64,000 bases of DNA from positions 1-64,000 of the forward strand of contig JAJDTR010000127.1 in NCBI GenBank assembly GCA_022827055.1, in the 5' to 3' direction. Source of the stretch: Candidatus Poribacteria bacterium. Lineage in GTDB: Bacteria > Poribacteria > WGA-4E > JAJDTR01. Below, one piece after another: positions 13,833 through 47,531 of this stretch. Each line of letters begins with the position of its first letter. The first letter of the stretch is position 1. The notes beneath the pieces were generated by a model that saw only the letters and a program-made list of their open reading frames with translations, searched no databases and had not been told where the DNA came from. The position numbers and the translations under genes were made by a program.

Positions 13833-16340
13833 ATGAACGAATCTTCAGACATATATGAGTCAATATCGACAGCGACAGTTGCGGAACTTGCCAAAGCCCA
13901 CAAATGGACGCAGGCAAAGTTTGAAGGGGTAGCGGAAACGAAACCGGATGAAGGTTACCTGACCGTGAACTTGGACGCGGGCAGGGTGCAACGAAGCGAA
14001 GTCACCACAACCGGATACGGACTTTACGCAATTGCCAGTTGCCCGCTCCGAATCGCCGACCGAGACTTTGAACGCGGGCTGCATTTTCCATCCGAAGGAG
14101 AGGTAGTGGTTCATCTGCCGAAACCCGCGAAAAGTTTCGAAACCGTTCTTGGCGTAGACAGCAATCGGGTTACCGGTTTCTATTCCAACGCAGGGCGTGG
14201 CACTGTAATTGCCTCAGTCGATGTCAATGGAAATGAGGTTTTTCGTTCGGATGTGCTCCACGAAGGATTGGAGGGGATTCCCCTTACAATCCAGCTCAAT
14301 AGCGCAACCGAATTTGTTCTCGGATTGAGCGATGCGGGCGGGGGGACAATCCAAAGAGTCAATTTCAACCAAGTGGATTGGGCGGAAGCACGGGTGATTC
14401 TGGAAGACGGGGAGACGGTATGGTTGGATGAGCTACCCACTGCCCCGCTGCGCGCCGCATATTCAACCGACGCGCCCTTCTCATTCCGTTATGCGGGACA
14501 ACCGTCCGGTGAGTTCCTTGATGGTTGGAAACTTGAGCGTACCGAGAGAGTGCTGGACGATGAGCGAACCGAACTCGTGACCACCTACTCCGATCCGTCT
14601 AGTGGTCTGCAAGTTCGATGCGTTGCCGTTAAATATGCAGATTTTCCTGTCGTGGAATGGACGCTGTATTTCAAAAACACGAGCGAGGAGCCGACCCCAA
14701 TTATTGAGGATATTCAAGCGCTCGACACCCAAATGGAACGCGGCGGTGACGGAGAGTTTCTACTGCACCACAACGACGGCAGTCCTCATTCCGGCATAGC
14801 GCCGCAAACTCCCACGCAATACGCGCCTCGGGAAACCGAACTCCCTCCCGGATCGGAGAAACGGCTGGCAGCAATGGAAGGGTTGCCGGCTGGAGGTGAT
14901 CTTCCCTATTTCAACGTCGAATGCAACGGTGAGGGCGCTATAATCGCCATCGGCTGGATGGGACAGTGGGCGGCGCAGTTCACACGCGACAATGCCAACG
15001 GCTTGAACATACGAGCGGGACAGGAGCTAACCCATTTCAGGCTGATGCCGGGTGAAGAGGTGCGCACCCCTCTTATGGCTATGCTGTTCTGGGAAGGCGA
15101 TTGGAACCGGTCGCAGAATCTATGGCGCCGCTGGATGATTCGCCACAACCTGCCTCGGCCGGGCGGAAAGTTACCTCCGCCGCAACTGGAAGCCGGCGGT
15201 TCGGCTCAGTATATCGAGATGTCTTTGGCAACCGAAGAAAATCAGATTGAATTTGTTGACCGCTACTTTGAGGAGGAGATCAAAATTGATTACTGGTGGA
15301 TGGATGCCGGCTGGTACAGCTTTCGCGACTATTGGCTAAGCTTGGGAACGTGGGAACCTGATCCGGAACGGTTTCCGCGCGGACTTCGTCCAATCTCGGA
15401 TCACGCTCATTCCAAAGGAGCTAAAGTCATTCTATGGTTCGTCCCTGAAAGAGCGGATCCGGGCGAATGGCTCTACGAAAACCATCCCGAATGGCTGTTG
15501 GGCATCAACGAGGGCAGAAAGCTTCTGGACTTTGGAAACCCCGACGCTTGGGAGTGGGCGGTAGATCACTTCGACTCGCTGTTTATCGAACAGGGCACTG
15601 ATCTCTTTCGAATGGACGGCGACGGTCCACTCCCATTTTGGCGGGCTAACGATTCCGAAGACCGCCAAGGGATTACTGAAATCCGACACGTTGAGGGCAT
15701 ATTGGCTTTCTGGGATGAGTTACGTCGTCGGCACCCTGACATGTTGATAGACATCTGCGCCGGCGGCGGTGCTCGAAACGCACTTGAAGCACTGCGCCGC
15801 GCCGTACCGCTTTGGCGAAGCGATTACGCCTACGAAACAACGGGAATGCAGAACCTGACTAGCGCCATGTCACTTTGGATTCCGTATTTTGGTGCGGGCA
15901 CGAATGCGTTTGAATCGTACACCTTCCGGAGTCAGATGGCACCCGCTGTATCCTGCATATGGGATTTGCGGCGCAGGGATGTTGATTACTCCTTCCAGCG
16001 CCGGGCAGTGGCGGAGTGGCGGCAAGTCTCGGATAACTATTACGGCGATTACTATCCGCTCACGGCTTACCGCACCGAAAACGATGTGTGGGCGGCTTGG
16101 CAGTTTGATCGCCCCGAATCCGGACAGGGGATGGTGCAAGCGTTCCGCCGTCAGGATAGCGATGTCACTCAGATGTGTTTCAAGCTGCGCGGGTTGGATC
16201 AATCGGCGGACTACACCATAACGAATATGGACGTTGACGGATCGACGAAAATCTCGGGTAAGGACTTGACGGAAAACGGTCTTTCAATTACAATTGAGGA
16301 ACAGCCGGGAGCAGCCCTGGTTGTTTATAAACGGCTATAG
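13833..16340 (+). CDS. GH36-like alpha-galactosidase with N-terminal NPCBM-like domain
   Basis: This 835-residue protein starts 7 bases after GGAGG. Residues 1 to about 200 form an NPCBM-type carbohydrate-binding domain. The GH36 beta-sandwich and (beta/alpha)8 barrel follow, including WWMDAGWY and LWFVPERADPGEW. The probable nucleophile is Asp about 595 (FRMDGD) and the acid/base Asp about 664 (LWRSDY), both clan GH-D positions. It should cleave alpha-linked galactosides or related glycosides. There is no signal peptide, so it looks cytoplasmic. Two shorter relatives (38488, 41609) lack the NPCBM domain. It shares the conserved AWQFDRP block near the C-terminus with both. Confidence 0.9.
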   Translation: MNESSDIYESISTATVAELAKAHKWTQAKFEGVAETKPDEGYLTVNLDAGRVQRSEVTTTGYGLYAIASCPLRIADRDFERGLHFPSEGEVVVHLPKPAKSFETVLGVDSNRVTGFYSNAGRGTVIASVDVNGNEVFRSDVLHEGLEGIPLTIQLNSATEFVLGLSDAGGGTIQRVNFNQVDWAEARVILEDGETVWLDELPTAPLRAAYSTDAPFSFRYAGQPSGEFLDGWKLERTERVLDDERTELVTTYSDPSSGLQVRCVAVKYADFPVVEWTLYFKNTSEEPTPIIEDIQALDTQMERGGDGEFLLHHNDGSPHSGIAPQTPTQYAPRETELPPGSEKRLAAMEGLPAGGDLPYFNVECNGEGAIIAIGWMGQWAAQFTRDNANGLNIRAGQELTHFRLMPGEEVRTPLMAMLFWEGDWNRSQNLWRRWMIRHNLPRPGGKLPPPQLEAGGSAQYIEMSLATEENQIEFVDRYFEEEIKIDYWWMDAGWYSFRDYWLSLGTWEPDPERFPRGLRPISDHAHSKGAKVILWFVPERADPGEWLYENHPEWLLGINEGRKLLDFGNPDAWEWAVDHFDSLFIEQGTDLFRMDGDGPLPFWRANDSEDRQGITEIRHVEGILAFWDELRRRHPDMLIDICAGGGARNALEALRRAVPLWRSDYAYETTGMQNLTSAMSLWIPYFGAGTNAFESYTFRSQMAPAVSCIWDLRRRDVDYSFQRRAVAEWRQVSDNYYGDYYPLTAYRTENDVWAAWQFDRPESGQGMVQAFRRQDSDVTQMCFKLRGLDQSADYTITNMDVDGSTKISGKDLTENGLSITIEEQPGAALVVYKRL

Positions 16341-16384: not shown

Positions 16385-16403
16385 GCGGGGCAAGATGCCC
16401 CGC
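16385..16403. repeat. Hairpin repeat family C, copy 1
   Basis: GCGGGGC and GCCCCGC flank AAGAT and are followed by CTAC. The same core occurs at 23782. Confidence 0.85.
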
Positions 16404-16526
16404 CTACTTTCAGATGAAGCAATTATCAATGGGACTACATTGACCAATCTTACAGTTTTCCAATCTTTCTTGTGATTTCAGAAGGTAGGGACATCTATCT
16501 CAATTATCTCAGGAGGAGAAGTAACC

Positions 16527-17750
16527 ATGCAGGTTAATCCGGCACAGTTGTGGGAGGACGGCTACATTATAATACCGGATTGCGTCCCCTCGAATCGCCT
16601 TGATGAGTTACGTAACAGTTTCGAGGTGCTTGTTGAACGCCAGAAAGAGATATGGGCGCGCGAACGTGGTCCGAACGATCCGCCCGGCGGTCAATGGGAG
16701 ATAGCTCCTCAGCCGAGGGCCACCTTCGGTCCGCTCATTGATGAGGAAACTGCCAATACCGTTGAATTCTGTCTGCACGAGAACACACTGGGAGTTAGTC
16801 GTCAGGTGATGCGGTCGCCCGAGACAATCCTCAAGTACATTACCATCATGTGCAGCCCGGTACAGGATCACGGTCCGTCAGGTTGGCACCGAGATATCGA
16901 ACCCAATCGCGACGGTCCGCTGAGCGGTTTACAAGCGGATATGGCGGCAAACGGTGTCGGGACCGTGCAATGGAACATTGCGCTTTACGACGACGATGTT
17001 CTTTGGATAGTCCCGGGCAGCCACCGGCGCCGCAACACCGATGCCGAGAATCGCACACTGCTTGAAAGCAACCGCCAACCATTACCGAATAGCATGCCCG
17101 TCAAACTCAAGGCGGGAGAGGGTGTGGTCTATTCCAACGCCATCCTTCATTGGGGCAGCAACTACAGCTCGAAACTGAGGAGAACGATTCATCTCGCCCT
17201 TCGAGCATTCGGTAGCAAGCTATTTTCGTATCGACCGTATCTCAACTGGACCATCGACTTCAGCAAACACCTTTCACCATCGGGCAGAGGGACTTTTGAG
17301 CAGTTCAGAAAGCGTTTCGATGCGGAGTTTGACGTCATTGCGCAATCGTTTCGTGCGGTCATCGACAAAGATGAAACGGCATTTCTCGAATGTGTTGCCA
17401 CGCTCCACCCCGGCGAAGAGCACCGGATGATCTGCGTCATGTTTTTGACGAAACTAGCCTATAAGGTCTATCACCTCAATAAACCGGAGGTAGCTGCGCT
17501 GCCCGACGCCGAGCAAGCGGGGCAGGTTGGATGGCCCTGGGAGAGCGTCGATGTTCTTCAGAACGTTGCCAGCCGGTTCACGGTTGATGAGACCGACCTC
17601 CTGTGGAGCCGCTTTATCGACATGGAAAATAGACTCAAGTCGGAGGAGGACCAATACGAACCCGGGTTCCAGACCGGTCCCACCAAGTATTACTTCTACG
17701 ACATGCCTCCGAATTACGAGGTAGAGGACTTTATCGCTACGTGGGAGTGA
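16527..17750 (+). CDS. Phytanoyl-CoA dioxygenase (PhyH) family protein 2
   Basis: This Fe(II)/2-oxoglutarate oxygenase of 407 residues starts 7-8 bases after AGGAGGAG. HxD is in GWHRDIEPN, and the distal His with a downstream Arg is in LHWGSNYSSKLRR. The C-terminal third is a helical extension (about residues 260-407) not seen in the small PhyH paralogues of this window. It is likely a separate substrate group. It follows the GH36-like gene after a family C hairpin, so it may have its own promoter. Confidence 0.9.
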   Translation: MQVNPAQLWEDGYIIIPDCVPSNRLDELRNSFEVLVERQKEIWARERGPNDPPGGQWEIAPQPRATFGPLIDEETANTVEFCLHENTLGVSRQVMRSPETILKYITIMCSPVQDHGPSGWHRDIEPNRDGPLSGLQADMAANGVGTVQWNIALYDDDVLWIVPGSHRRRNTDAENRTLLESNRQPLPNSMPVKLKAGEGVVYSNAILHWGSNYSSKLRRTIHLALRAFGSKLFSYRPYLNWTIDFSKHLSPSGRGTFEQFRKRFDAEFDVIAQSFRAVIDKDETAFLECVATLHPGEEHRMICVMFLTKLAYKVYHLNKPEVAALPDAEQAGQVGWPWESVDVLQNVASRFTVDETDLLWSRFIDMENRLKSEEDQYEPGFQTGPTKYYFYDMPPNYEVEDFIATWE

Positions 17751-18151: not shown

Positions 18152-19129
18152 ATGGCTCTAACACAGGCACAACTCGATAAGTTCCACGAAGACGGGTTTC
18201 TCATAGTGGAAGATGTTTTCGACAAGAAGGATGTGGAAGCCGCGCGAATCGAGATGGAAAAGATATTTTACGGTACGAGTTTCGAGGATTACTTGGCGAA
18301 GTCGGATGCCACCGGCAAAGCGGAATCCACCGACCCCACCAGCACCGCGGCGGTTCCTCACTACGGCGAAACGAAACACGGGCGCGCCCAATTCCCGACA
18401 GGCATTGACGCGCTTGATCGCCTTATTGAAAACGAAGACTACCTCGACATGTATGAGCAGTGCCTCGGCACACCGGACATGAGCTACTGCAACGGGCACC
18501 TGTTTTTGCGATCGGGCCCCACCGACAAGCGGCATGCCGAACACCCTTGGCAGGGGTATCACATTGACCACGCAACAAACTGCTTTTTGCCGCCGAGTCA
18601 GGAGGTGGACTTATACAACTATGTGAATTCTTGCGTCTATCTCCACGATGTTGAAGACGACGGAGCACCGATGCAAATCATCCCACGCACCCATCGACAG
18701 ATTATCGACCTTCTTCCTCGGCTCATTGAAGAGGGCAACTGGACGGGTATGGGCGGCATCAATGACATCCGAGAAATCCCCGAGTTTTGTGCCCCCGTCG
18801 CCACGACAGCCAAGGCAGGCAGCGTTCGATTCAATAGCTCTTACGGTGTTCATGCGGCAATCCCCTTCAAGAATAAGCGTAGGCAGCGAGGCTATTGGAC
18901 ACTTTCACTCTGCCGTGGAGATAGCAGTCAGTTTACCAAGTTGTCGAACCTGTGGAGAGAACGGGACTTCTCCATTCCGTTCTGGCAGAAGACGACACCG
19001 CGCGTGCGGGCGCTGTTCGGTTGGCCCAAGCCGGGACACTCCTACTACACGCCCGAAACTGTCGAGTCACTCGCGCATTGGTATCCCGAGATGGATTTAG
19101 AGCCGTACCAAAAAGCGATGGAGGCATGA
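18152..19129 (+). CDS. Phytanoyl-CoA dioxygenase (PhyH) family protein 3
   Basis: This 325-residue Fe(II)/2-oxoglutarate oxygenase has HxD in GYHIDHATN and the distal His in GVHAAIPFKNKRRQRG, which also supplies the Arg. GGGAGGAG precedes the ATG. The stop overlaps the start of the next gene (ATGA), so the oxygenase and the amidohydrolase are almost certainly translated together. This suggests the oxygenase acts just before or after a hydrolysis in one pathway. It is not close to the tandem PhyH array. Confidence 0.9.
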   Translation: MALTQAQLDKFHEDGFLIVEDVFDKKDVEAARIEMEKIFYGTSFEDYLAKSDATGKAESTDPTSTAAVPHYGETKHGRAQFPTGIDALDRLIENEDYLDMYEQCLGTPDMSYCNGHLFLRSGPTDKRHAEHPWQGYHIDHATNCFLPPSQEVDLYNYVNSCVYLHDVEDDGAPMQIIPRTHRQIIDLLPRLIEEGNWTGMGGINDIREIPEFCAPVATTAKAGSVRFNSSYGVHAAIPFKNKRRQRGYWTLSLCRGDSSQFTKLSNLWRERDFSIPFWQKTTPRVRALFGWPKPGHSYYTPETVESLAHWYPEMDLEPYQKAMEA

Positions 19130-20022
19130 TGCCCCGCATTGACGCTCATCTTCATGTGTTCACCAAGGCGTCCACAGAGTTTCCGAGGGAAACCAATGAG
19201 CTTTGGCCCGCAGAACGGGAAGAATCTGTCGAAAAATTGCTTGCAGAGATGGAAGCGCATCAGATTGATCAAGCGGTGCTTGTGCAACACCCCGGCGTAC
19301 AGATTGCCCATCACGCCTATCTCTTACACTGCCTCAGAACGCACCCGAACCGCTTTTTGGGCATCGGACTCATATCTCCCGACCTTCCCGACGTTGAAGA
19401 CCACATGGACACCTTGACAGATGGCACCGGAATTGTAGGCTTTCGACTTTCGAGAATTGGGGGACCTCGCGATCCCTTTGAAAAAATAGATGTGAAGCAA
19501 CTTGGCGCCTATCGCATCTGGAAACACGCTGCAGAGAACGATTATGTCCTCTGGCTGATTCTTCAGGCACGCGATGCGCATCTACTGCCGTATCTTGTTG
19601 CCGAATTTCCTCAGGTCAGGATTGTCATTAACCACATGGGGGTGTGTCCGGGAAATGGCAAACTCTCTTGGGGCACAAATTGCCGACCACGAATAGAGAC
19701 ACCGATGTACAATCCGGCGTTTCACACGACCTGGCGACTCGCACAATTCGAGAACGTTGCGATGTTATTGTGCCTCCAGTACGCATTCAGTAACGAGCCG
19801 TTCCCGTATCGAGATCTTGTGGGGTGGCATCAAAGTCTCTTGAGGATTTACGGTTCCAAGCGCCTTATGTGGGCGACCGATTCTCCGTGGATTCTCGAAG
19901 ATCCGGGTTACGGCAAGTTGACTACCATCATCAAAGAATTAATGCCCGATCTCACGGAAGACGAATACCGGGACATCATGGGGGAAACCGCAAAACGGTT
20001 TCTGCGCTTTCCCGACCAATGA
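19126..20022 (+). CDS. Amidohydrolase-2 family protein
   Basis: I place the start at the ATG at 19126 (or the adjacent ATG at 19129), not at 18952. Similarity begins at once with the metal motif DAHLHVF, and the ATG overlaps the PhyH stop by four bases. The 298-residue TIM-barrel has further metal or catalytic positions in VINHMG and WATDSPW. Members hydrolyse lactones (for example fuconolactone), decarboxylate aromatic acids or cleave amides. Given the sugar-related neighbours, lactone hydrolysis is a reasonable guess. Confidence 0.88.
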   Translation: MMPRIDAHLHVFTKASTEFPRETNELWPAEREESVEKLLAEMEAHQIDQAVLVQHPGVQIAHHAYLLHCLRTHPNRFLGIGLISPDLPDVEDHMDTLTDGTGIVGFRLSRIGGPRDPFEKIDVKQLGAYRIWKHAAENDYVLWLILQARDAHLLPYLVAEFPQVRIVINHMGVCPGNGKLSWGTNCRPRIETPMYNPAFHTTWRLAQFENVAMLLCLQYAFSNEPFPYRDLVGWHQSLLRIYGSKRLMWATDSPWILEDPGYGKLTTIIKELMPDLTEDEYRDIMGETAKRFLRFPDQ

Positions 20023-20159: not shown

Positions 20160-20912
20160 ATGAATATTGAAACACTAAAAACAGAACTAGATGAGTATGG
20201 ATTCGTCCTTATTCCCGATCTAATCCCATCGTCGGACGCCGAACGCATGGCACAGCGGCTGATGGAGATCATGGATCAGATTCCGGATTCGCCCGATTTC
20301 AGTGGCGCACAAGAAACGAGTCAACACCTGCGCGGTGTGTTCAACTTTCTCCATCCCAGCGAATTTGACCTGTTCGAGCAAATCGCTACGAATCCGGTGC
20401 TCCTCGAACTGGCGGATTACAAACTCGGTGATGGTTTTCAACTCAACACGGTGGCCGCCCTCTGGCGGAAACCCGGGGCTCCAATCGGCAAACTTCATGC
20501 CGATCTCCCGATGCTGACGAGGCGCGAGACTCCGTTTCCTACGCCTAAGGTGTGCTTTCTCCTTAACTGTCTATGGATGCTGACTGACTTCACTAAAGAA
20601 AACGGAGCCACGAGGGTGATGCCTTTCAGCCATCATGCCGGGATCCCTCCCAGAGCCGAGATCGAATACAGACATTTGGTTACCGTGGAAGGACGAGCGG
20701 GCTCGGTGGTCGTGCTGAATGGCCCCGTATGGCACGCCGCTTGGTCAAACACGACGAACGACCAACAACGCATGGGGGCGCCGGTTCCTTTCCACGCGCG
20801 GTGGATGGATCCCACTGATCCCGCCCTCGGATGGTGCCTTCATAAACGCAGCGTCCGCGACAAATTCTCGCCCGAGATGCGGGAGTTAACGCAACACGTT
20901 GAAGATGATTGA
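20160..20912 (+). CDS. Phytanoyl-CoA dioxygenase (PhyH) family protein 4
   Basis: This is a compact oxygenase of 250 residues. HxD is in LHADLPML, and the distal His with a nearby Arg is in VWHAAWSNTTNDQQRMG. The sequence between and after these motifs differs from the array next door, so it is a separate lineage. GAGGAATC precedes the ATG closely. It starts 138 bases after the amidohydrolase and ends just before a family B hairpin. Confidence 0.88.
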   Translation: MNIETLKTELDEYGFVLIPDLIPSSDAERMAQRLMEIMDQIPDSPDFSGAQETSQHLRGVFNFLHPSEFDLFEQIATNPVLLELADYKLGDGFQLNTVAALWRKPGAPIGKLHADLPMLTRRETPFPTPKVCFLLNCLWMLTDFTKENGATRVMPFSHHAGIPPRAEIEYRHLVTVEGRAGSVVVLNGPVWHAAWSNTTNDQQRMGAPVPFHARWMDPTDPALGWCLHKRSVRDKFSPEMRELTQHVEDD

Positions 20913-21091: not shown

Positions 21092-21907
21092 ATGGCACTC
21101 ACTCCCCAACAATGCGAATTCTTCCATTCATTCGGTTATCTCGTTCTGCCGGGTTTACTGGCTGACGATGTGGATTGGATGATTGAAGAGCATCGAAAGG
21201 TTTTTGAGAAGAACGGCATCGTTCACGATGGCACGAAACGTACGTATGTCGTGCCGTTCATAGATCAAACCGAAAAACTGTGCACCCTGCTTGACCATCC
21301 AAAAGTTCTTGAAGTGCTCGGATCTCTTTTAGGCGACGATTTTAATTACGTCGGTAGTGATGGCAGTTACTACAGCGGTAACACGAGCTGGCACGACGAT
21401 GGCGGACAGCGGCCCGGCGGTCTGGTTTTCGCCAAATTCCATATCTACCTCGACACACTGACACGCGATACGGGGTGTATTCGAGTCATCCCGGGGAGTC
21501 ACTTGCCGGGAGGCTGGAGAGACCAACTGAGAGAGAACATCTGGCTCCAGCCGTTCTGCGAATCGATAGGTGTTGCCGGCACCGATATCCCTTGTGTTGC
21601 AATTGAAAATGAACCCGGAGATGTCGCCGTGTTGAACCACACCACCTATCACGCATCCTTCGGCGGCGGAACGGCGCGACGGCACTTCGACCTCAATCTG
21701 TCGAGCCGCGCGAAAACGGAGGAGGAAATCGCAGATCTTGAGAAGTTCATCCTGCCGGGGGAACGCACCAAGGAGAAACCTAGCAAATACGCACCGGGAG
21801 AACAAGACATCATGCTCGGCACGGCTACTCCGGAGCGCATGCGCCATCTTGAGCAAGTGATCGAGCGCGAAAATCTCGATCGAGCCGCTTGGGAAGCTAC
21901 CCAATAG
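21092..21907 (+). CDS. PhyH-family dioxygenase, tandem array member 1
   Basis: I start it at 21092 (MALTPQQCEFF), 9 bases after AAGGAGG; the track start 21044 is too early. It has 271 residues. HxD lies in WHDDGGQ, and the distal His and Arg in HASFGGGTARRH. It defines the subfamily found again at 21979, 22893, 23929, 37474, 43713 and 46665: MxLTPQQ start, FGYLxLPGL, LCTLLDHPK, LLGDDFNYVG, PGSH, HASFGGG and a closing RMRHLEQV motif. Members probably act on related substrates, which are unknown. It shares an orientation and intergenic spacing of about 70-120 bases with its paralogues. Confidence 0.93.
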   Translation: MALTPQQCEFFHSFGYLVLPGLLADDVDWMIEEHRKVFEKNGIVHDGTKRTYVVPFIDQTEKLCTLLDHPKVLEVLGSLLGDDFNYVGSDGSYYSGNTSWHDDGGQRPGGLVFAKFHIYLDTLTRDTGCIRVIPGSHLPGGWRDQLRENIWLQPFCESIGVAGTDIPCVAIENEPGDVAVLNHTTYHASFGGGTARRHFDLNLSSRAKTEEEIADLEKFILPGERTKEKPSKYAPGEQDIMLGTATPERMRHLEQVIERENLDRAAWEATQ

Positions 21908-21978
21908 TCACCGACCGCGCGTTTCACGTAGTCCTCTTGCCGTTCCCAGATTTTAATAGAAGCACGTGAGCCAAAGTG

Positions 21979-22770
21979 ATGCTTTCTCCTCAACAACGTA
22001 ACTTCTTTGAATCGCTCGGCTATCTCATTCTGCCAGGTCTGCTTGCCGATGACATTGATTGGATTACGGATGAGCACGAAAAAGTCTTTGAAAAGAAGGG
22101 GGTTGTTCATGACGGCTCGAAACGTTCCTTTCTTGTCCCCTTCATTGACGAAAGCGAGCGTCTCTGTTCCCTGCTTGACCATCCCAATATCGTAGGCGTG
22201 CTCGGCTCATTGTTGGGCGACGACTTCAATTACGTAGGGGGCGGCGGCAACTATTACAGCGGCGACACAAATTGGCACGACGACGGAGGTCATCGCGTCG
22301 GAGGTCTGGTTTTCGTCAAGTTTCACATCTATCTCGATCCACTGACTCGCGAGACAGGTTGTATCCGAATTATCCCTGGCAGCCATCTCGACGGTGAATG
22401 GAGGGGCCAACTACAGAAAATCCGTCTGCAGGCGTTTAGCGAGGAACTAGGAATTCAGGGAGTTGATGTGCCCTGCGTGGCTGCTGAAACTGAACCCGGC
22501 GATGTTGTCGTCTTGAATCACACAACCTATCATGCATCCTTCGGCGGTGGACCGGCACGCCGTCATCTTGATCTGAACGCCTCCAGTAGGGCGAGGACAG
22601 ACGCCGAGTTCAAGGATCTCGACAAATTCATCAAAATCATAGAGGGCTTCAAGCGGGAAAAGGAAGCCAAGGGGGAGGAAGACATGATTCTCAGCACCGC
22701 CTCCCCCGAACGAATGCGCCACCTTGAACAGGTAATTGGACGCGAACTGTATCTTCGCAACGCAGTTTGA
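21979..22770 (+). CDS. PhyH-family dioxygenase, tandem array member 2
   Basis: This closest neighbour and paralogue of member 1 has 263 residues. I use the ATG at 21979; a GTG one codon upstream is the track start. HxD lies in WHDDGGH and the distal His in HASFGGGPARRH. It keeps the same Asp between His and Asp as member 1, unlike members 3 and 4 (Ser). The Shine-Dalgarno is weak, so it may depend on upstream translation or a separate promoter in the 71-base gap. Confidence 0.92.
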   Translation: MLSPQQRNFFESLGYLILPGLLADDIDWITDEHEKVFEKKGVVHDGSKRSFLVPFIDESERLCSLLDHPNIVGVLGSLLGDDFNYVGGGGNYYSGDTNWHDDGGHRVGGLVFVKFHIYLDPLTRETGCIRIIPGSHLDGEWRGQLQKIRLQAFSEELGIQGVDVPCVAAETEPGDVVVLNHTTYHASFGGGPARRHLDLNASSRARTDAEFKDLDKFIKIIEGFKREKEAKGEEDMILSTASPERMRHLEQVIGRELYLRNAV

Positions 22771-22892
22771 TGGTCGCACAAGTATCGTTTGTCGGGTGTT
22801 GAATATGCGCACCAACTTTTCGCGGATTTCGCTCTGCTTTTTTAAGTCTCCCGTTACGCTCCGATATTCCATAAAAAGGATGCAACCCTAAA

Positions 22893-23684
22893 ATGACTCT
22901 TACTCCCCAACAGTGCACCTTCTTCGAAGTATTTGGCTTTCTGATCCTTCCCGGTTTGATGTCCGACGACATTGACTGGATAATCGAGGAGCATGGGAAG
23001 GTTTTTGAGCAGCAAGGCGTCGTTCATGACGGGTCCAAGCGTTCAATGATTGTCCCGTTTAGTGATCAGCGTGAACGACTCTGCACGCTTCTAGACCATC
23101 CGAAAGTGCTCGGTGTGCTGAAGTCACTGCTCGGCGATGATTTCAACTATGTGGGCGGCGACGGAAACTACTACAGCGGCGACACGAACTGGCACTCCGA
23201 CGGCGGACATCAAGTCGGTCTATTCGGCAAATTTCATCTCTATCTCGACCCGTTGACGCGGGATACGGGATGTATCCGCGTGATTCCCGGCAGCCACCTG
23301 ATCGGTCCGTGGAGAGAGCACCTTCAAGGTACTCGCCAGCCCACCGAACTTCTCGGCATCTCCGGTCGGGATGTCCCCTGCGTCGCCGCTGAAACCGAAC
23401 CCGGCGATGTCGTCGTGTTCAATCACAACATTTATCATGCCTCTTTCGGCGGCGGACCTGCCCGCCGTCACATGTGCCTCAATGTGACTAGCCGAGCCAA
23501 GACCGAAGCCGAAGTCAACGAACTCGACCGGTATCTGCGACCAGCCGGTAGACCGAAGCATTGGCTAGGAAAGTACCCGCCCGGCGCACAAGACATCATG
23601 CGGAATACGGCGTCACCTAAGCGTTATGTCCATCTGGAACAGGTCATCCAACGCGAGCAGTATTACCTAAACGCGGCACAGTAA
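22893..23684 (+). CDS. PhyH-family dioxygenase, tandem array member 3
   Basis: It has 263 residues, MTLTPQQCTFF start, HxD in WHSDGGH and the distal His/Arg in HASFGGGPARRH. The Ser in the HxD triplet and the shortened loop after it (VGLFGKF rather than VGGLVFVKF) separate it from members 1 and 2. AAAAAGGA is upstream with a longer than usual spacing. It is followed by about 190 bases including a family C hairpin. Confidence 0.92.
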   Translation: MTLTPQQCTFFEVFGFLILPGLMSDDIDWIIEEHGKVFEQQGVVHDGSKRSMIVPFSDQRERLCTLLDHPKVLGVLKSLLGDDFNYVGGDGNYYSGDTNWHSDGGHQVGLFGKFHLYLDPLTRDTGCIRVIPGSHLIGPWREHLQGTRQPTELLGISGRDVPCVAAETEPGDVVVFNHNIYHASFGGGPARRHMCLNVTSRAKTEAEVNELDRYLRPAGRPKHWLGKYPPGAQDIMRNTASPKRYVHLEQVIQREQYYLNAAQ

Positions 23685-23781
23685 TACCATTTCTATAAAC
23701 TGCTTGTGCATTAATTGAGTGATTCAGGTAAAGGAGCTTGCATGAAGTGAAACAGAAAGTCTTATCCCCGCACAAAATCGA

Positions 23782-23798
23782 CGGGGCAAGATGCCCCG
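23782..23798. repeat. Hairpin repeat family C, copy 2
   Basis: CGGGGC and GCCCCG flank AAGAT, followed by CCTAC. It matches the copy at 16385 and lies between PhyH array members 3 and 4. Confidence 0.85.
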
Positions 23799-23928
23799 CC
23801 TACGGAGTAGCGATGGATAAAGTCAAGATATCATATGCACTGTTATTCGAGCGAAATGGTATAACTTTTGGATGCTCCGCGTTTGCCTGATTCTAGTCAT
23901 ACCCCGCGATCCAAGGAAGAAGCCTCAC

Positions 23929-24729
23929 ATGTCGTTGACTCCTCAACAATGTTCCTTCTTTGAAGCATTCGGATATATCCTTCTCCCGGGATTGATGACC
24001 GATGACATCGGTTGGATAATTGAGGAACACAAGAAAGTCTTTGAGAAAAAAGGGCTTGTACACGACGGAAGTAGGCGCTCTCAAATTGTGCCATTCAGCG
24101 ATCAGAGCGAGAGGCTCTGTACCTTGCTCGATCACCCCAAAGTGTTGGGCGTACTCAAATCACTGCTTGGCGAAGATTTCAACTACATCGGCGGCGACGG
24201 CAATTATTACAGCGGCGATACGAATTGGCATTCCGATGGATTTCATACCGTCGGCTTCTACGCCAAGTTTCATCTCTACCTCGACCCATTGACGCGCGGC
24301 ACCGGTTGTATTCGCGTAATCCCAGGCAGCCACTTAGGCGGACCATGGCGGCATCATTCGGAACGAGCTCGCCAACCAAACGAAGATTTTGGCATCCAGG
24401 GATGCCACATCCCGTGTGCCGCTATAGAAACCGAACCTGGTGACATCGTCGTATTCAATCACAACATCCTCCACGCTTCCTACGGCGGAGGCACCGCCCG
24501 CCGCCACTTTTGTTTGAATGTGTCACGTCGGGCAAAAACTGACACCGAGATTGAGGAACTCCACAAATACATCCGACGTCCTGATGGATTGCCGCGTTAT
24601 CACCCGAGATCCGCCAGTGTCCACTCCGAACTCATGCGGCGCACCGCATCGCCCGCGCGAATGCGCCACCTAGAGCAGGTCATCGACTGCGAAAACCAGT
24701 GGCTAACGAAAGGGAGACACTCGAACTAA
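23929..24729 (+). CDS. PhyH-family dioxygenase, tandem array member 4
   Basis: I start it at the ATG at 23929 (MSLTPQQCSFF), preceded by AAGGAAG, rather than 23872. It has 266 residues, HxD in WHSDGFH and the distal His in HASYGGGTARRH (Tyr replaces the usual Phe). Its TAA overlaps the next ATG by one base (TAATG), so it is translationally coupled to the SMP-30 lactonase. This is the only array member joined directly to a sugar-lactone enzyme and the best clue to a sugar-like substrate. Confidence 0.92.
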   Translation: MSLTPQQCSFFEAFGYILLPGLMTDDIGWIIEEHKKVFEKKGLVHDGSRRSQIVPFSDQSERLCTLLDHPKVLGVLKSLLGEDFNYIGGDGNYYSGDTNWHSDGFHTVGFYAKFHLYLDPLTRGTGCIRVIPGSHLGGPWRHHSERARQPNEDFGIQGCHIPCAAIETEPGDIVVFNHNILHASYGGGTARRHFCLNVSRRAKTDTEIEELHKYIRRPDGLPRYHPRSASVHSELMRRTASPARMRHLEQVIDCENQWLTKGRHSN

Positions 24730-25568
24730 TGACAATCTCCGACATACTTGACGGCGAACCGGAACTCGTTGCTACCGGGTTCAAATTTACGGAGGGACCA
24801 GTCTGGCACCCTGACGGTTATCTCTTTCTCAGCGACATTCCGGCGCATCGAATCTTTAAATTGACGCTTGACGGCACATCAGAGATTTTTCGAGAACCCA
24901 GCGGCGGCGCTAACGGACTCACTTTTGACCGCCAAGGCAGGCTCATCGCATGCGAATATCATAGCCGCCGCGTTTCCCGTACGGAATCCGACGGAACGAT
25001 TAGCGTTCTCGCGGACAGTTACCACGGCAAGCGTTTGAATAGTCCAAACGATGTGGTGGTGAAGTCGGATGGCAGCATCTATTTCACCGATCCCTTCTAC
25101 GGTTTCCCCGCAGACCAAGAACGCGAACTCGACTTTCAAGGCGTCTACCGTATCGCTCCCGACGGCGCAATCACACTGCTTGTCGATGATTTCGGCGTGC
25201 CGAACGGATTGGCGTTTTCGCCGGATGAACGTATCCTTTACATCGACGATTCAAGACACCAACATGTCCGTGCCTTTGATGTGTTATCGGACGGTTCGCT
25301 CGCCAACGGGCGAATTTTGATCGATATGAGAGCTGACGCACGGGGGGCGGCGGATGGAATGAAGGTGGATATCTCTGGAAACCTCTACGTCACGGGCGCG
25401 GGCGGAACGTGGGTTATTTCGCGGTCGGGAAAACACCTCGGAACCATTGTCACTCCCGAATTGCCGGAGAACTGCGTTTTCGGGGGGCCGGATCACAAGA
25501 CACTCTTTATCGCGGCTCGAACTTCAATCTACAGCATTCGGCTCAGTATCGCCGGCGCCCAGAACTGA
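24729..25568 (+). CDS. SMP-30/gluconolactonase/LRE-like protein
   Basis: This 279-residue six-bladed propeller enzyme starts at the ATG within TAATG; the track start 24699 lies inside the PhyH gene. Metal-ligand positions of the family are visible: Glu in TEGPVW, Asn in SPNDVV and Asp in AADGMKVD. The family hydrolyses sugar lactones (gluconolactone and similar) and other lactones. It is cytoplasmic. Coupling with the upstream PhyH suggests successive steps. Confidence 0.9.
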   Translation: MTISDILDGEPELVATGFKFTEGPVWHPDGYLFLSDIPAHRIFKLTLDGTSEIFREPSGGANGLTFDRQGRLIACEYHSRRVSRTESDGTISVLADSYHGKRLNSPNDVVVKSDGSIYFTDPFYGFPADQERELDFQGVYRIAPDGAITLLVDDFGVPNGLAFSPDERILYIDDSRHQHVRAFDVLSDGSLANGRILIDMRADARGAADGMKVDISGNLYVTGAGGTWVISRSGKHLGTIVTPELPENCVFGGPDHKTLFIAARTSIYSIRLSIAGAQN

Positions 25569-25704: not shown

Positions 25705-26628
25705 ATGCAATATCGCCAGTTAGGTTGTTCCGGGATTGAAGTGCCGGTTTTAGGGTTGGGCGGCTGGACATTGGGTGGATCGGCATATGGGGAAGTTGAC
25801 CGGGACACCGCGATGACCGCCATGCGCACGGCGTTCGATCTCGGCATCACTCTCATCGACGGCGCGCCATACTATGGCGATACCGAGATTTGGTTTGGAG
25901 AGGAATTTCGCACCAGACGGCATGAAGTGTTCCTCATCACCAAATCCCAGCGGCGTCCCTACACAAAAGCGAATCTGTTTGCCAACATTGAGGGCAGCCT
26001 CAGAAACTTGCGCACGGACTACGCCGATCTTTACGTCATCTTTCCCGATGCGAACACTCCGGTAGACGAGATTCTTGATGGGTTGATTCAGGTGAAGGAA
26101 TCCGGCAAAGCCCGTGCCGTGGGCGTCACTAATTGGGATAGCGCTATGCTGCAGGCTTCCGTTGGCAAGGTGGAACTGGCAACCAACCAACTCGGCTACA
26201 GTCTCTTTGATCGCTATTGGCAAAAGACCGTATTTCCGACCTGCGCAGAGCTGGGCATCGGTGTCATGGCGTACAGTCCGCTTGCTCAAGGGCTTCTGAG
26301 TGGGGCAATTACCGCTGACACCATTCTCCCGCCGGACGACGTGCGAACCCATAACAATCTTTACGCACCCGAGAACCTGCCTACGAATTTAACCGTAGTG
26401 GAGAAGTTGAAGGAGTTCGCCAGCGAGCGCGGGTTGACGCTCTCCCAGCTGGCGTTGGCGTGGACACTCGCCAATCCACTCGTAAGTGTGGCGATAGTTG
26501 GAACCCGCCGCCCAAATCGGTTGGCGGAAGATGTCGGCGCGCTTAAGGCAGCATTGACACCTGTGGAGTTGGCATGGTTGGATACTATTGTCGCCAGTAT
26601 CGTCGGTGTTGCCCCGCGTTTCGGTTGA
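25705..26628 (+). CDS. Aldo/keto reductase with altered catalytic His region
   Basis: This 307-residue AKR barrel has the general catalytic Asp and Tyr in TLIDGAPYYG and the Lys in LITKSQRR. The loop that normally reads as IHWPD reads DLYVIFPD, so the tetrad His and following Trp are replaced by one Phe. The NADPH-binding end (VGTRRPNRLAED) looks intact. It may be an altered or substrate-specialised reductase. GAGG is 12 bases from the ATG. It lies between the SMP-30 and sulfatase genes. Confidence 0.88.
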   Translation: MQYRQLGCSGIEVPVLGLGGWTLGGSAYGEVDRDTAMTAMRTAFDLGITLIDGAPYYGDTEIWFGEEFRTRRHEVFLITKSQRRPYTKANLFANIEGSLRNLRTDYADLYVIFPDANTPVDEILDGLIQVKESGKARAVGVTNWDSAMLQASVGKVELATNQLGYSLFDRYWQKTVFPTCAELGIGVMAYSPLAQGLLSGAITADTILPPDDVRTHNNLYAPENLPTNLTVVEKLKEFASERGLTLSQLALAWTLANPLVSVAIVGTRRPNRLAEDVGALKAALTPVELAWLDTIVASIVGVAPRFG

Positions 26629-26778
26629 AATGTGTATCGTTTCTCTTTTCTAGTCTGCGTCTGTTCACGCCTCTTTCAACTGCCTCTTACGCATTACGTA
26701 TCATCATTGCAGGCTATAGACCTCTGATTTTTCTTATGTTCCACGCCTTACTTGTTTTTTCTTCAAGGAGCACATTCA

Positions 26779-28254
26779 ATGTCCAATCATTCTCAACAGC
26801 GTCCGAATATCATGGTTATCCACTGCCACGACATCGGACGTCATCTTGGCTGTTACGGACGTAGCGTAGAAACGCCGAACATAGACAGCTTGGCAGATGA
26901 AGGCGTCCGATTCGATCAGTATTTTTCAACTGCCCCCTACTGCGCCCCGAGCAGATGCAGCCGCATGACGGGACTTTATCCCGTAAACCACGGTGCAATC
27001 GGCCAGACGCACTTGGGTTGGAAAATGAACGATGGGGTTCAGACCTTACCGATGTATATGAACGCGCTCGGTTACGATACCCATCTTTTCGGTTTTCAAC
27101 ATGAAGCCATCGATCCTAAAAATCTCGGCTATCGGCACACCGAGTACGGCTTTCCAAACGCCACAATCAGCGCCATGGACGTGGCGCCGCGAGTTCAGCA
27201 GTTTCTCGACAGTTACCGCGAAGAGGACGGCCCGTTCTACATGGATGTGGGATTTACCGAGGCGCATTCCGCGACGCCGCGCGGAGGGTTCGAGAACTGG
27301 CCCGACAACTTGCCCGTGCCGCGTTTCAAACCGAAGTATGTTCACCGTGTGGACGCCCCCAAGTATGAGGGTCAGATAGTCCGTCCCGTCGACAATCCGT
27401 GCGATCCCTATTTCCGCGACTACGATCCGGACGAAGTTCAGCCGTTGCCATACCTCCCGGACCGGCGCGGAATCCGCGAGGACATAGCGGACTTGAATAG
27501 CCTAATCACCTGCGTCATTGATGTCGCGGTGGGACGAATCCTCGACAAACTCAGCGCTACCGAGCTGGACAGAAACACGCTTGTCATCTTTACGACAGAC
27601 CACGGAATTGAGGTGCCGCGCGCCAAAGGATCACTCTACGACGCGGGTATCGAGTGTGCCCTGATTATGCGCTATCCCGACAATTTTCAGCCGGGGACAG
27701 CGAATGATGCCCTTCTCAGCAATGTAGACTTTCTGCCTACGCTTGTCGAAATTGCTGGCGGTAATGCCCCGGATGATATTGACGGGCATTCCTTCCTTCC
27801 GATGCTTCAAAATCGCGCCTATCAGCGCCGAGACCACATCTATGCCGAGAATACGTGGCACGGTCAATATATCCCGATACGAGGCATTAGGACGGAGCGC
27901 TTCAAGTACCTGATGAATTTCGACACGCACAAGCATCTCCTTTACCCGCAAAACAGGTCAGCGCGCGAAGTGCTCACGGAACTGCTAACGGGATTCAAAG
28001 GGATTGAAGAGCTATACGACCTCGAGTCCGATCCGCACGAACAGAACAATCTCGCATCTACGCGAAAGATGTTCGGTTTCGGTGATGTAGACTTCACCGG
28101 ATTGTCCGGCTGGACGCCCTGCCATCCCGATTACAAGAGAATTGCGACATCCTTCAAAGCGCAATTGAGGGCGCATATGGAGGAAACAAACGACCTACTG
28201 CTGAAAGGTCCCGTAACTCACCCCGGATTCGAGCATATTTGGGATGACCTGTAA
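26779..28254 (+). CDS. Type I sulfatase, N-sulfoglucosamine-sulfohydrolase-like
   Basis: I use the ATG at 26779, 8 bases after AAGGAGC; 26752 is the track start. It has 491 residues. The sulfatase signature CAPSR begins at Cys55 (PYCAPSRCSRMTGLYP). That Cys should be converted to formylglycine by a separate maturase, not present here. A C-terminal metal site is in FTTDHGIE. The N-terminal metal motif reads HCHDIG rather than the usual Asp-Asp. Overall it resembles heparan-N-sulfatase-like S1 members. There is no signal peptide, suggesting the sulfated substrate is taken up first, or an atypical leader. Confidence 0.9.
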   Translation: MSNHSQQRPNIMVIHCHDIGRHLGCYGRSVETPNIDSLADEGVRFDQYFSTAPYCAPSRCSRMTGLYPVNHGAIGQTHLGWKMNDGVQTLPMYMNALGYDTHLFGFQHEAIDPKNLGYRHTEYGFPNATISAMDVAPRVQQFLDSYREEDGPFYMDVGFTEAHSATPRGGFENWPDNLPVPRFKPKYVHRVDAPKYEGQIVRPVDNPCDPYFRDYDPDEVQPLPYLPDRRGIREDIADLNSLITCVIDVAVGRILDKLSATELDRNTLVIFTTDHGIEVPRAKGSLYDAGIECALIMRYPDNFQPGTANDALLSNVDFLPTLVEIAGGNAPDDIDGHSFLPMLQNRAYQRRDHIYAENTWHGQYIPIRGIRTERFKYLMNFDTHKHLLYPQNRSAREVLTELLTGFKGIEELYDLESDPHEQNNLASTRKMFGFGDVDFTGLSGWTPCHPDYKRIATSFKAQLRAHMEETNDLLLKGPVTHPGFEHIWDDL

Positions 28255-30385: not shown

Positions 30386-30504
30386 ACGCCATGATCTCTC
30401 CTATTAAAACGATTGACATTTACTGAACCATCTTTCTGAAAAAAGAGAAAACTTATTCTTATATTGACTATTTCATATTCCTCGAACTCGCGTACCCATT
30501 CCTG

Positions 30505-33500: not shown

Positions 33501-33657
33501 GGTTCGGGTATGGGTTACCCTTACCGGAGAACACCTCCTAACACTCAAGGGGCATACGAGCAAAGTGATTTCTGTCGCCTTTTCTCCCGACGGAAAAACA
33601 CTTGCGAGTGGAAGCGCTGATGGCACGATATTATTATGCTCCTTGATCCCTGATTAA
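30505..33657 (+). CDS. Secreted 14+7-blade WD40 protein with internal dockerin
   Basis: It has 1050 residues with a signal peptide (LFSVSILYLSVPLVGDT). It has 14 WD40 blades, then two dockerin-type calcium loops (ADVNIDSFVN, ADINRDSVVD, about residues 636-690), a short helical region (TRKGIVALEQLLTAL), and seven more blades opening with LPKGAKARLSK. In the 430 gene that helical region leads into PNPFNPETWIPY; here the sorting tail is missing and a third propeller takes its place. This may be a gene fusion or an end-duplication. It starts 119 bases after the previous WD40 gene. Confidence 0.9.
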   Translation: MRKKSHLVSRLALFSVSILYLSVPLVGDTSVQSSTKWALPEGARARLAKGWISQIAYSPDGTHLAAAGSVGIWTYDVNSGTEVALFTGHTNGVSSVTYSSDGLMLASGSWDGTVQLWTPRTGENVQILSGHGEGITSVAMSNDKSIIVSGSSDKTVRLWDVQTGKLLHTLVGHEKGVYSVSISFDGTMVASSGGYDEIIRVWNAHTGLQLQTLEGHRNNVTSVAFSPDGSILASGGGYDNTVMLWDIHSGEVAHTLIGHTDWVDTIAFSPDGSTLASGSQDNTIRLWDVRTGKSLLTLGGYIGDVTSLAFSPNDRTLASRSGDNSIRFWNFRSGELLQTIHGHSGRIKSIAYSPDGSLLASGGGDAYIGTDDYSIRLWDVHTGGLFRTLTGHRFPVHSVTFLPDGSTLASSDNAPIIRFWDARAGKGIRRLSGIRGQVDFVVFSPDAKTFAADFGRLIYLRDSRTAEDLHILKGHTDSVRCLAYSPDGNLLASGGHGVYDRIRLWNARTGEHLHTLGNASHFVHTIVFSPDGNTLASASHGAIRLWDTGTQRLLKTFRLSDDVGSLAFSTNGNTLAIGGHGKIRLFDRRTGDLRANLEGHNDTVHSVKFSPDGMTLASGSADGTILLWDLPPSTLADVNIDSFVNIRDLMSVYTQFGETADNRADINRDSVVDVADLLLVAAAIEKNLTALYVHPQSVYTEICDILTTTQVNDWLSDARRLEYRDETTRKGIVALEQLLTALTVWSSVEPHRVAQGLPKGAKARLSKTKLSSNIVYSPNGKLLAVASGRTISFHEASTGAEIGVLSSHSADINCLAFSHNGLTIASGSNDNTVLLWDARTTKQRLVLKGHKGPTHSVAFSLAPYILASAGMDGTIQLWDAFTGKRVRTLEHSGWIKSLAFSPDGYRLASGGWAGKVLIWYVELDEPFLTLEDHSGWVNSVTFSPDGKTLASGGTDELLRLWGAYEGDLKQPLHRHASGILSTTFSPDGMLLASGGYDNTVRVWVTLTGEHLLTLKGHTSKVISVAFSPDGKTLASGSADGTILLCSLIPD

Positions 33658-34868: not shown

Positions 34869-35064
34869 AGGGGCACCGTTTACCAGATTCCGCGATTTTT
34901 CCCAACCACTTCTTTTCTTACGCACCACGTGTCAAGAATCGCCTATCAGTTAGCGCCGGTAACTAGCCAACGACCGCTGAAACCTGATCTTTCCACATTT
35001 CGCTCGTCGCTCGCACGCATTTTCTTTGCCGTTCCAATCCATTCCACCACCACCCCCTGATAAC

Positions 35065-37473: not shown

Positions 37474-38331
37474 ATGAAATTGACCGACCAACAACTCAAC
37501 TTTTTTCATAATTTTGGCTACCTGATGATTCCGCAACTCTTTAGTCCCGAGGAGATGGCATGGATCATTGAGGAATACGAGAACGTCCTTCAGAATCACG
37601 CGGGCGGGAATGCTCATGACGGCTCACGACGTACCATGATCGTCCCCTCCTACGGTTACAGCGAAAAACTCTGTACACTGCTTGATGACCATCGTATCCT
37701 TGGGATTGCGTCCGGCATTCTTGGAGATGACTTTAATTACGGCGCTGGCGATGCCAACTACTACGTAGGCGACACTCGCTGGCATCCCGACGCAAGTTGG
37801 CCCGAACTCTTTGCGATTAAGATGACTTTTTACCTTGACCCAATGAGTGCCGACACCGGCTGCCTCCGCGTTATTCCCGGGAGTCATCGACTCGACTCGT
37901 ACTGGCATAAGAATCTGGACGAGGACTGGAGAAACGATCGCGATCACATTAATCTAAACGACTCGGAAGACGTCTGGGGGCTTTCGCCTGCCGACATTCC
38001 CGGGAGCGTTGCGATAGAAACCAGTCCGGGCGATTTGGTATTCTTTAATCACACCATTTTCCACGCCTCCTTCGGCGGGGGAACTCGCCGGCGTATGTTC
38101 ACGCTGAACCTAACTAAAGGCGGCAAGACCGAGGCGGAAATCGCACGTATAGACGCATATCTTACGAGGAACTGCCCGACTGCTCATGGATTCAAAATCG
38201 GTGGAATGTACACTGATCTCACAATCGACACCGCCACCCCCGAACGCCTGAGACACATGACGCAGTTTCATGAACGTCACGCCGTCGTGCATCCTAACGA
38301 CACTATTCCACGCGAATTGCCGACACTCTAA
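37474..38331 (+). CDS. PhyH-family dioxygenase paired with GH36-like gene (cassette 1)
   Basis: It has 285 residues of the array subfamily (MKLTDQQLNFFHNFGYLMIP start). HxD lies in WHPDASW and the distal His/Arg in HASFGGGTRRR. Pro between His and Asp is shared with the GH36-linked copies at 43713 and 46665, but not with the array at 21-24.7 kb. GGGG lies close before the ATG. The GH36-like gene follows after 156 bases. Confidence 0.92.
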   Translation: MKLTDQQLNFFHNFGYLMIPQLFSPEEMAWIIEEYENVLQNHAGGNAHDGSRRTMIVPSYGYSEKLCTLLDDHRILGIASGILGDDFNYGAGDANYYVGDTRWHPDASWPELFAIKMTFYLDPMSADTGCLRVIPGSHRLDSYWHKNLDEDWRNDRDHINLNDSEDVWGLSPADIPGSVAIETSPGDLVFFNHTIFHASFGGGTRRRMFTLNLTKGGKTEAEIARIDAYLTRNCPTAHGFKIGGMYTDLTIDTATPERLRHMTQFHERHAVVHPNDTIPRELPTL

Positions 38332-38487
38332 AACGTTTTGAGTCAGCAAAACTCTATATCCCAGCAAGCGCGGCTGCAAGAATAAGTGAATTTCGTCGCA
38401 TGGCACTGGAAACAGGAATTCATAACCTATGGCGATTCCGTACCTCAAATTCGATATGCTTACACTGGAATAGGAGTATTCCTTCAA

Positions 38488-43712: not shown

Positions 43713-44585
43713 ATGCAACCGACTGAGCAGCAACTCAATCACTTTCATACATTCGGGTTCCTGCTTTTGCCTGCGCTTCTCCAGCCAGACGAAGTGGCAT
43801 GGATTACCGATGAGTTCGAGCAGGTCCTTCAGATTCATGGCGCCGAGCATGACGGTTCCAAGCATACCCAAATTGTCCCGATGCTCGATCACAACGAGCG
43901 ACTTTGTTCACTGCTTGATGACGCGCGCATTTTGGGAATTGCGAGCGCTGTCCTAGGCGACGACTTCAACTATGGCGGCGGAGACGGCGACTTTTGGGTT
44001 GGCGATACGGCTTGGCACCCCGATGGAAATTATCCGGATCTTTTTGCCATCAAGTTTGCCTTTTATTTGGACGCTCTCACGCGCGACACCGGCAGTCTGC
44101 GCGTCCTCCCCGGTAGTCATCTGCCCGAATCCTATTGGCGATGCGGAAATATGCACCCCAATAACGCTCAGGCGTCCTGGGGTATCGATCCGTGGGAGAT
44201 TCCGGGCAATGTTGCGATAGAGACGAATCCCGGGGATCTCGTGGTCTTCAACCACAGTATCTTCCACGCCTCTTTCGGCGGCAGCAATCGACGGAGGCAG
44301 TTTTCCATGAATTTGCATAGACGCGGCAAGACCGATGCGGAATTGGCGCGCATCGATCAGTATCTCGGTCATCACGGCACGATTCCGCGGGGCATCCGAA
44401 TCGGCGGCAAGTTCACGGGACTTAAACCGGGCAGCATGTATACGGACTTCAGCATGTACACCGATCTGATGATTGACACTGCGACGCCAGAGCGGTTGCG
44501 CCATCTTTCACAATTACACCATCGCGTGGCGCATGTCCACCCGGCTGCGGCTCCGCCGCGGTCCCTACCGGCCAACAATACATAG
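43713..44585 (+). CDS. PhyH-family dioxygenase paired with GH36-like gene (cassette 2)
   Basis: It has 290 residues of the array subfamily (MQPTEQQLNHFHTFGF). HxD lies in WHPDGNY and the distal His/Arg in HASFGGSNRRR. AGGAAA lies 8 bases before the ATG. Spacing to the upstream GH36 gene is 10 bases and to the downstream P4H-like gene 18 bases, so the three probably form one transcript. It has an insert before the last helices (GGKFTGLKPGSMYTDF) shared with 46665. Confidence 0.93.
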   Translation: MQPTEQQLNHFHTFGFLLLPALLQPDEVAWITDEFEQVLQIHGAEHDGSKHTQIVPMLDHNERLCSLLDDARILGIASAVLGDDFNYGGGDGDFWVGDTAWHPDGNYPDLFAIKFAFYLDALTRDTGSLRVLPGSHLPESYWRCGNMHPNNAQASWGIDPWEIPGNVAIETNPGDLVVFNHSIFHASFGGSNRRRQFSMNLHRRGKTDAELARIDQYLGHHGTIPRGIRIGGKFTGLKPGSMYTDFSMYTDLMIDTATPERLRHLSQLHHRVAHVHPAAAPPRSLPANNT

Positions 44586-46664: not shown

Positions 46665-47531
46665 ATGCAACCGACGGAACAACAACTCAACCACTTGCAC
46701 ACTTTCGGCTTTGTGGCTTTTCGCGAACTCTTTTCCTCTGACGAAGTAGCTTGGATTACCGATGAGTTTGAACAAGTCGTTCAAGTCCACGGCGGCGATC
46801 ACGACGGGGCGAAGCACACGGGAACTGTCCCGGCGCTCGATCACAGCGAACGTCTCTGTACGCTGCTCGATGACGCGCGCATTCTCGGTATTGCATCCGC
46901 GATTCTGGGTGACGACTTCAATTATGCCGGCGGCGACGCCAACTTCTATGTGGGGAATACCGGTTGGCACCCCGACGGGAATTATCCCGATGTGTTTGCC
47001 ATCAAGCTGGCATTCTACCTTGATCCTCTTACCCGCGACACCGGTTGCTTACGCGTACTTCCCGGTAGCCACCGTCCCGACTCCCCTTGGAGAACCGAAG
47101 GTTTGCAGCCCCGAGATTCCGAAGTGTCATGGGGTATACATCCATCAGAGATTCCTGGTAACGTTGCGCTGGAAACAAACCCGGGCGATCTCGTAATCTT
47201 CAATCACAGCACCTTCCACGCCTCGTTCGGCGGCGCCAATCGCAGACGCATGTTCACCATGAATTTGCATAAGCGCGGCAAAACAGAAGCCGAATTGGCG
47301 CGTATAGATGAATACCTGAGCCATCACGGCACTCTGCCACGCGGAATTCGTATCGGCGGAAAGTTCACGGGGAACGGTAAGAACAACATGTATTCCAACT
47401 TCAGCATGTACACCGACATAATGCTTGACACGGCTACGCCGGAGCGGCTTCGGCATCTCTCGCAGCTTCACGAACGCGTGGCGCTAGTTCATTCAAAAGC
47501 CGCTCCTCCACGCCCCTTGAACATAAAGTGA
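46665..47531 (+). CDS. PhyH-family dioxygenase, GH36-cassette type
   Basis: I set the start at 46665 (AAAGGAGG upstream); the track start 46518 is far too early. It has 288 residues, very similar to 43713: MQPTEQQLNHLHTFGF, HxD in WHPDGNY, distal His in HASFGGANRRR and the same late insert. It looks like a duplicate of the cassette 2 oxygenase without an adjacent GH36 gene. Confidence 0.93.
   Translation: MQPTEQQLNHLHTFGFVAFRELFSSDEVAWITDEFEQVVQVHGGDHDGAKHTGTVPALDHSERLCTLLDDARILGIASAILGDDFNYAGGDANFYVGNTGWHPDGNYPDVFAIKLAFYLDPLTRDTGCLRVLPGSHRPDSPWRTEGLQPRDSEVSWGIHPSEIPGNVALETNPGDLVIFNHSTFHASFGGANRRRMFTMNLHKRGKTEAELARIDEYLSHHGTLPRGIRIGGKFTGNGKNNMYSNFSMYTDIMLDTATPERLRHLSQLHERVALVHSKAAPPRPLNIK

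Follow-up and report, generated by a model that had tools for sequence, protein, structure and literature searches.

Four genes encoding PhyH-family Fe(II)/2-oxoglutarate (2OG) oxygenases lie in tandem on the forward strand of a 64,000-nucleotide stretch of a Candidatus Poribacteria genome (the window; bases 1-64000 of one contig in an assembly of 5.57 Mb and 171 contigs). On balance we favor the reading that the catalytic half of the first two, m1 and m2, was remodelled once, and that this pair acts on a substrate other than that of m3 and m4, a sugar-type substrate being the likeliest. The four genes, with the HxD segment of m1, are:

21092..21907, forward strand: m1, PhyH-family Fe(II)/2OG oxygenase, 271 aa, HDD type, PF05721 43.1 bits
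21390..21430, forward strand: m1 HxD segment and following loop, W100-H101-D102-D103-G-G (alignment columns 108, 118-119)
21976..22770, forward strand: m2, PhyH-family oxygenase, 264 aa, HDD type, PF05721 46.5 bits
22893..23684, forward strand: m3, PhyH-family oxygenase, 263 aa, HSD type, PF05721 49.3 bits
23929..24729, forward strand: m4, PhyH-family oxygenase, 266 aa, HSD type, PF05721 44.7 bits

The first-pass annotation had described four tandem PhyH paralogues at 21092-24729 and named pseudogenisation as evidence that would speak against it; all four frames are intact, and all score above the curated PF05721 cut-off of 22 bits (43-49 bits). No NCBIfam family name was found for any array member. 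The start of m2 is a GTG at 21976 or an ATG at 21979; m4 has a long frame from 23872, with the homologous ATG at 23929, and its 3' end runs past the GTG at 24699 with which the next gene begins. The gaps between m1 and m2, m2 and m3, and m3 and m4 are 68, 122 and 244 bp. Comparison of the members with each other, proposed as a check in that annotation, gives pairwise identities of 59-71% in a nearly gap-free alignment.

Among the at least 150 PhyH matches listed for the genome, m1-m4 form the longest same-strand run, which extends to five genes if the more distant PhyH gene at 20160 is included; the next longest run is four. About 18 same-strand PF05721 runs of two or more genes are found genome-wide among the matches listed, and most genes are single or paired. 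The closest relative compared, Candidatus Poribacteria RHO2_bin_20 (G001), carries orthologues of m1, m3 and m4 in the same order with the same flanks, and the cluster is collinear in the two genomes from the upstream GH36 gene to the downstream PhyH genes. The length of the run, together with the order kept in an independently assembled sister genome, indicates that the array is not a chance arrangement. Tandem repeats misassemble easily and the genome is in 171 contigs, but an artefact of collapsed or chimeric copies is highly improbable, since copies with at most 71% identity are easy to separate in assembly and the sister assembly independently shows m1, m3 and m4 in order between the same flanks.

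The active-site residues are those of a 2OG oxygenase. The putative iron ligands H101, D103 and H187 (m1 numbering) are invariant in m1-m4 and in 69 aligned relatives, and they are also kept in the GH36-linked copies, in agreement with the earlier claim that the iron ligands stay. All four members read HAS at 187-189, placing a Ser (S189) at distal His+2 as in PHYH (Ser266) and EctD (Ser250; residue roles from PMC2871039). For the Arg expected at the start of strand VIII, which binds the 2OG 5-carboxylate, both R196 and R197 are invariant in the aligned relatives and open the predicted strand 196-204 of the m1 model. The SyrB2-type halogenase feature, in which Ala or Gly replaces the Asp ligand, is absent, with D103 present in all four.

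AlphaFold2 models of m1 (mean pLDDT 93, pTM 0.90) and m3 (mean pLDDT 93, pTM 0.91) have 441 and 405 PDB matches, respectively, at E<=0.001 by Foldseek. These are 2OG oxygenases, and the best, which differ widely in their defined chemistries and match at TM about 0.6, are SnoK, SptF, TlxIJ, EvdO1, proline hydroxylase, EctD, HygX and KanJ. The predicted fold of m1 and m3 is the double-stranded beta-helix (DSBH) of 2OG oxygenases; a fold predicted in this way gives the chemistry class of the array enzymes, not their substrate. The nogalamycin carbocyclase/epimerase pair SnoK/SnoN (5epa, 5ep9) provides the best Foldseek match to m1 (E 8.6e-14) and is among the best for m3, and SnoK is also a profile match that reads HDD like m1 and m2; however, identity to the array is about 20% at TM about 0.6, no anthracycline genes lie near the array, and nothing there points to cyclase or epimerase chemistry. 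EvdO1, AviO1, HygX and KanJ, which are orthosomycin and aminoglycoside oxygenases acting on sugar moieties, share fold and superfamily with the array and are Foldseek matches of its models, although at 15-21% identity and in a biosynthetic rather than catabolic context. EctD (4mhr, 3emr) is a profile match (E 5.9e-11) that shares WHSD with m3 and m4 as well as the Ser at distal His+2, but its signature FxWHSDFETWHxEDG(M/L)P (PMC2871039) is absent from the array, which reads WH[DS]DG[GF][QH].

Members of PF05721, including one active Poribacteria protein, demethylate 2'-O-methyl nucleosides (PMC12709175), and this activity makes oxidative O-demethylation a possible reaction of the array, which does lie among glycosidase and sulfatase genes. 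It is nevertheless quite unlikely that the four enzymes remove O-methyl groups from sugars or nucleosides in the manner of PHYHD1/FJS, with paralogues for differently placed methyl groups. PHYHD1-type enzymes read HND (PMC12709175) where the array reads HDD or HSD, the array profile searched against the PDB retrieves EctD, SnoK and PtlH and not PHYHD1, and nothing at the array indicates an O-methyl substrate.

The triplets had been read in the first-pass annotation as WHDDGG in m1 and m2, WHSDG in m3 and m4, and WHPD in the GH36-linked copies, and these readings are exact: the HxD segments are TSWHDDGGQR in m1, TNWHDDGGHR in m2, TNWHSDGGHQ in m3 and TNWHSDGFHT in m4. The HPD copies, which lie beside GH36 genes at 38386-40611 and 41609-43702, were assigned from the tree and motif:

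37474..38331, forward strand: GH36-linked PhyH, HPD type, WHPDASW
43713..44585, forward strand: GH36-linked PhyH, HPD type, WHPDGNY
46665..47531, forward strand: GH36-linked PhyH, HPD type, WHPDGNY

In a set of 119 non-redundant relatives, the position between the His and Asp of HxD is occupied by S in 81, P in 23, R in 6, H in 5 and D in 3, and one further row is a truncated match. HSD is therefore the common state; only m1, m2 and G001 m1 carry HDD. On a tree of 111 relatives this residue changes at least eight times. HSD gave rise to HDD a single time, in the common ancestor of m1 and m2, which form a clade with 100/99 support in a tree of the array clade with outgroups. The HPD trio forms a separate, older and long-standing clade in the tree of 111 relatives; its inclusion in the divergence of the array does not hold, and a single series of HPD, HSD and HDD inside the array is ruled out. 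A change of S to P also arose independently in a dispersed copy, G019a. In the profile alignments EctD reads HSD and SnoK reads HDD, so that neither state is unusual in itself, and because this residue varies naturally in the family the triplet alone is weak evidence for divergence.

The change in m1 and m2 is not limited to the triplet. Seventeen derived positions are common to m1, m2 and G001 m1, comprising S102D and 16 others; every one falls in the C-terminal half, which makes up the catalytic barrel, and none in residues 1-94, against a 42 to 98 distribution of the clade's remaining variable sites (Fisher p=0.003). Within the C-terminal half the changes are not significantly concentrated in DSBH core segments (p=0.15). 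F181L alters a position at which 57 of 57 outside relatives keep F, and N184T one at which the nine other clade rows all have N; N184T and I185T adjoin the distal His187. A Gly-Leu insertion after HxD (m1 residues 110-111) is found only in m1 and m2, and further derived positions fall within the long strand IV-V insert (152-155) and towards the C terminus (228-242). Substrate binding in EctD involves the segment 5-6 residues past the proximal His as well as the C-terminal part (PMC6890836), and its strand IV-V loop has been described as a putative lid (PMC2871039); this mapping of regions rests on a profile alignment (E about 1e-10), with secondary structure and literature rather than coordinates. 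Near-identical pockets in all copies, which the first-pass annotation held would contradict it, are not what we find, as m1 and m2 differ from m3 and m4 in the catalytic half. Unique changes tend to be more numerous in m1 and m2 than in m3, but the excess, albeit consistent in direction, is significant with some outgroups only, and this counts against remodelling.

Selection on three of the members could be followed between the two species. Relative to the G001 orthologues, m1 is 94% identical (dN/dS 0.05-0.06), m3 94% (about 0.10) and m4 92.5% (0.08-0.09), and these ratios show that m1, m3 and m4 are maintained under strong purifying selection. Between array members dN/dS is not measurable, since paralogue dS is saturated or undefined. 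The earlier proposal of duplication followed by substrate divergence thus draws support from the differing pockets, the purifying selection on m1, m3 and m4, and the derived block in the catalytic half of m1 and m2, and much less from the triplet on which it was founded; from the sequences, such divergence is likely.

It is rather doubtful that the four genes serve dosage, with all catalyzing the same reaction and the changes at and near the HxD middle residue being neutral or tuning stability or kinetics. That residue varies widely among relatives, the ligands and most invariant columns are common to m1-m4, and m2 is lost in the sister genome; yet members that are just 59-71% identical include m1, m3 and m4, each held at dN/dS 0.05-0.10, and the m1/m2 changes occur only in the catalytic half, at otherwise invariant positions.

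No orthologue of m2 is found in G001, which lacks both the gene and the m2-m3 spacer (22771-22892 in the window), with the junction at the m3 start codon. As far as the start codon, the sequence between the G001 orthologues of m1 and m3 matches the m1-m2 spacer, a pattern that would fit a clean loss of m2 together with the spacer behind it; alternatively, m2 may have been gained in the source lineage from another relative. A chimeric m2/m3 gene in G001 is ruled out, its m3 being m3-like from the start codon onward. With no counterpart in the sister genome and with departures from several near-invariant positions (F14L, D90G, F199L, M241I), m2 is possibly dispensable, and a tentative alternative is that it is a decaying or dispensable copy, with m1, m3 and m4 the functional set. 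Its frame is nevertheless intact, its ligands are retained, and the m1-m2 differences are concentrated at third codon positions (63/38/157 by position).

The array clade is present in 8 of 85 genomes of the phylum searched, with four copies in the source genome, three in G001, three dispersed copies in G019, and one in each of five genomes of genus g5. In a tree of the array clade with outgroups, m3 groups with two of the dispersed copies of G019, which belongs to another genus, and m4 stands apart. Monophyly of the array is rejected (AU p=0.046; log-likelihood 20.8 lower when forced), albeit marginally, and so the four genes are probably not one purely local, lineage-specific expansion. We note a clade-wide difference at m1 positions 34, 117 and 198: each of the twelve array-clade rows carries His at all three, against Phe, Ala and Met in 56 of 57 outside relatives. 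Residue 117 falls in a predicted strand, with the invariant K115 and Y119 on either side, and 198 directly follows the invariant R196-R197. One could imagine, as an unlikely reading, that the clade is an uncharacterised PhyH subfamily with its own putative pocket marked by these His residues, whose four genes perform successive or position-specific oxidations of one complex substrate, m1 and m2 representing a recent second specificity.

The genes around the array are, with the sources of the assignments:

13833..16340, forward strand: GH36/melibiase-type glycosidase with NPCBM domain, upstream context (Pfam)
16527..17750, forward strand: distant PhyH, HRD (Pfam, motif)
18152..19129, forward strand: distant PhyH, HID (Pfam, motif)
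19132..20022, forward strand: amidohydrolase-2, weakly like L-fucono-1,5-lactonase (39 bits, far under the model cut-off of 400)
20160..20912, forward strand: distant PhyH, HAD, directly upstream of m1 (Pfam, motif)
24699..25568, forward strand: SMP-30/gluconolactonase-like (PF08450, 182 bits)
25705..26628, forward strand: aldo/keto reductase (PF00248)
26752..28254, forward strand: sulfatase (PF00884)

The GH36, sulfatase, amidohydrolase, SMP-30 and aldo/keto reductase genes point to sugar catabolism. The single-copy g5 orthologues have other neighbours (methyltransferase, FGE-like and dehydrogenase genes), and since the carbohydrate context is not conserved in the clade, the substrate class is only a lead; a conserved operon context that would name the substrate is unsupported. 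A literature search on PhyH together with sponge and sulfatase found nothing relevant. Two DUF6785/DUF6784 proteins (35026-36996 and 51175-53121) flank the GH36-PhyH part of the cluster and are possible transporters of its substrate. Two long WD40-repeat proteins (28442-33657) lie inside the metabolic cluster and are 55-77% identical between the two species, much below the surrounding enzymes. A palindromic 19-mer, GGCGGGGCATCTTGCCCCG, occurs in two exact copies (16386-16404 and 23782-23800; none expected in shuffles), the second of them inside the m3-m4 spacer, where G001 carries extra sequence.

The mechanism that we infer, including catalytic activity, substrate class and different specificities, is as follows. 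Each member, most likely a functional Fe(II)/2OG oxygenase, would form a double-stranded beta-helix in which H101, D103 and H187 hold the iron, and S189 would assist in holding 2OG along with either R196 or R197, both invariant, so that a small substrate may be hydroxylated or oxidatively demethylated. The copies would derive from repeated duplication of an HSD-type ancestor, partly predating the genus. The m1/m2 ancestor would then have undergone one remodelling of the catalytic half, including S102D, the Gly-Leu insertion, F181L/N184T/I185T, and the lid and C-terminal changes, and the pair would most likely act on a different or differently decorated substrate, or at a different position of attack, from m3 and m4. 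As substrate class, a sugar or sugar lactone would be likeliest, set free by the enzymes of the nearby GH36, sulfatase, lactonase-like and aldo/keto reductase genes.

An expansion of PhyH in Poribacteria has been described by Kamke et al. 2014 (PMC3909097), with more than 1.9% of genes, mostly unassigned, and 305 PhyH sequences in 193 clusters at 60% identity; the at least 150 matches in one genome reported here belong to the same family and phylum. The abundance and diversity of PhyH were thus already published, but that paper's passages on phyH do not describe the array found here, how it arose or how its active site changed. Relative to those passages, the array, its one-time change to HDD and the three-His signature add new detail of a known kind. 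The PhyH repertoire of Poribacteria is among the largest known, and hardly any of it has an assigned substrate. The single-copy HSD orthologues of genus g5, the dispersed copies of genus g8, and the array of genus g1 with its one HDD remodelling form a small dated series, and this series offers a tractable enzyme set for asking how PhyH expansions yield new specificities.
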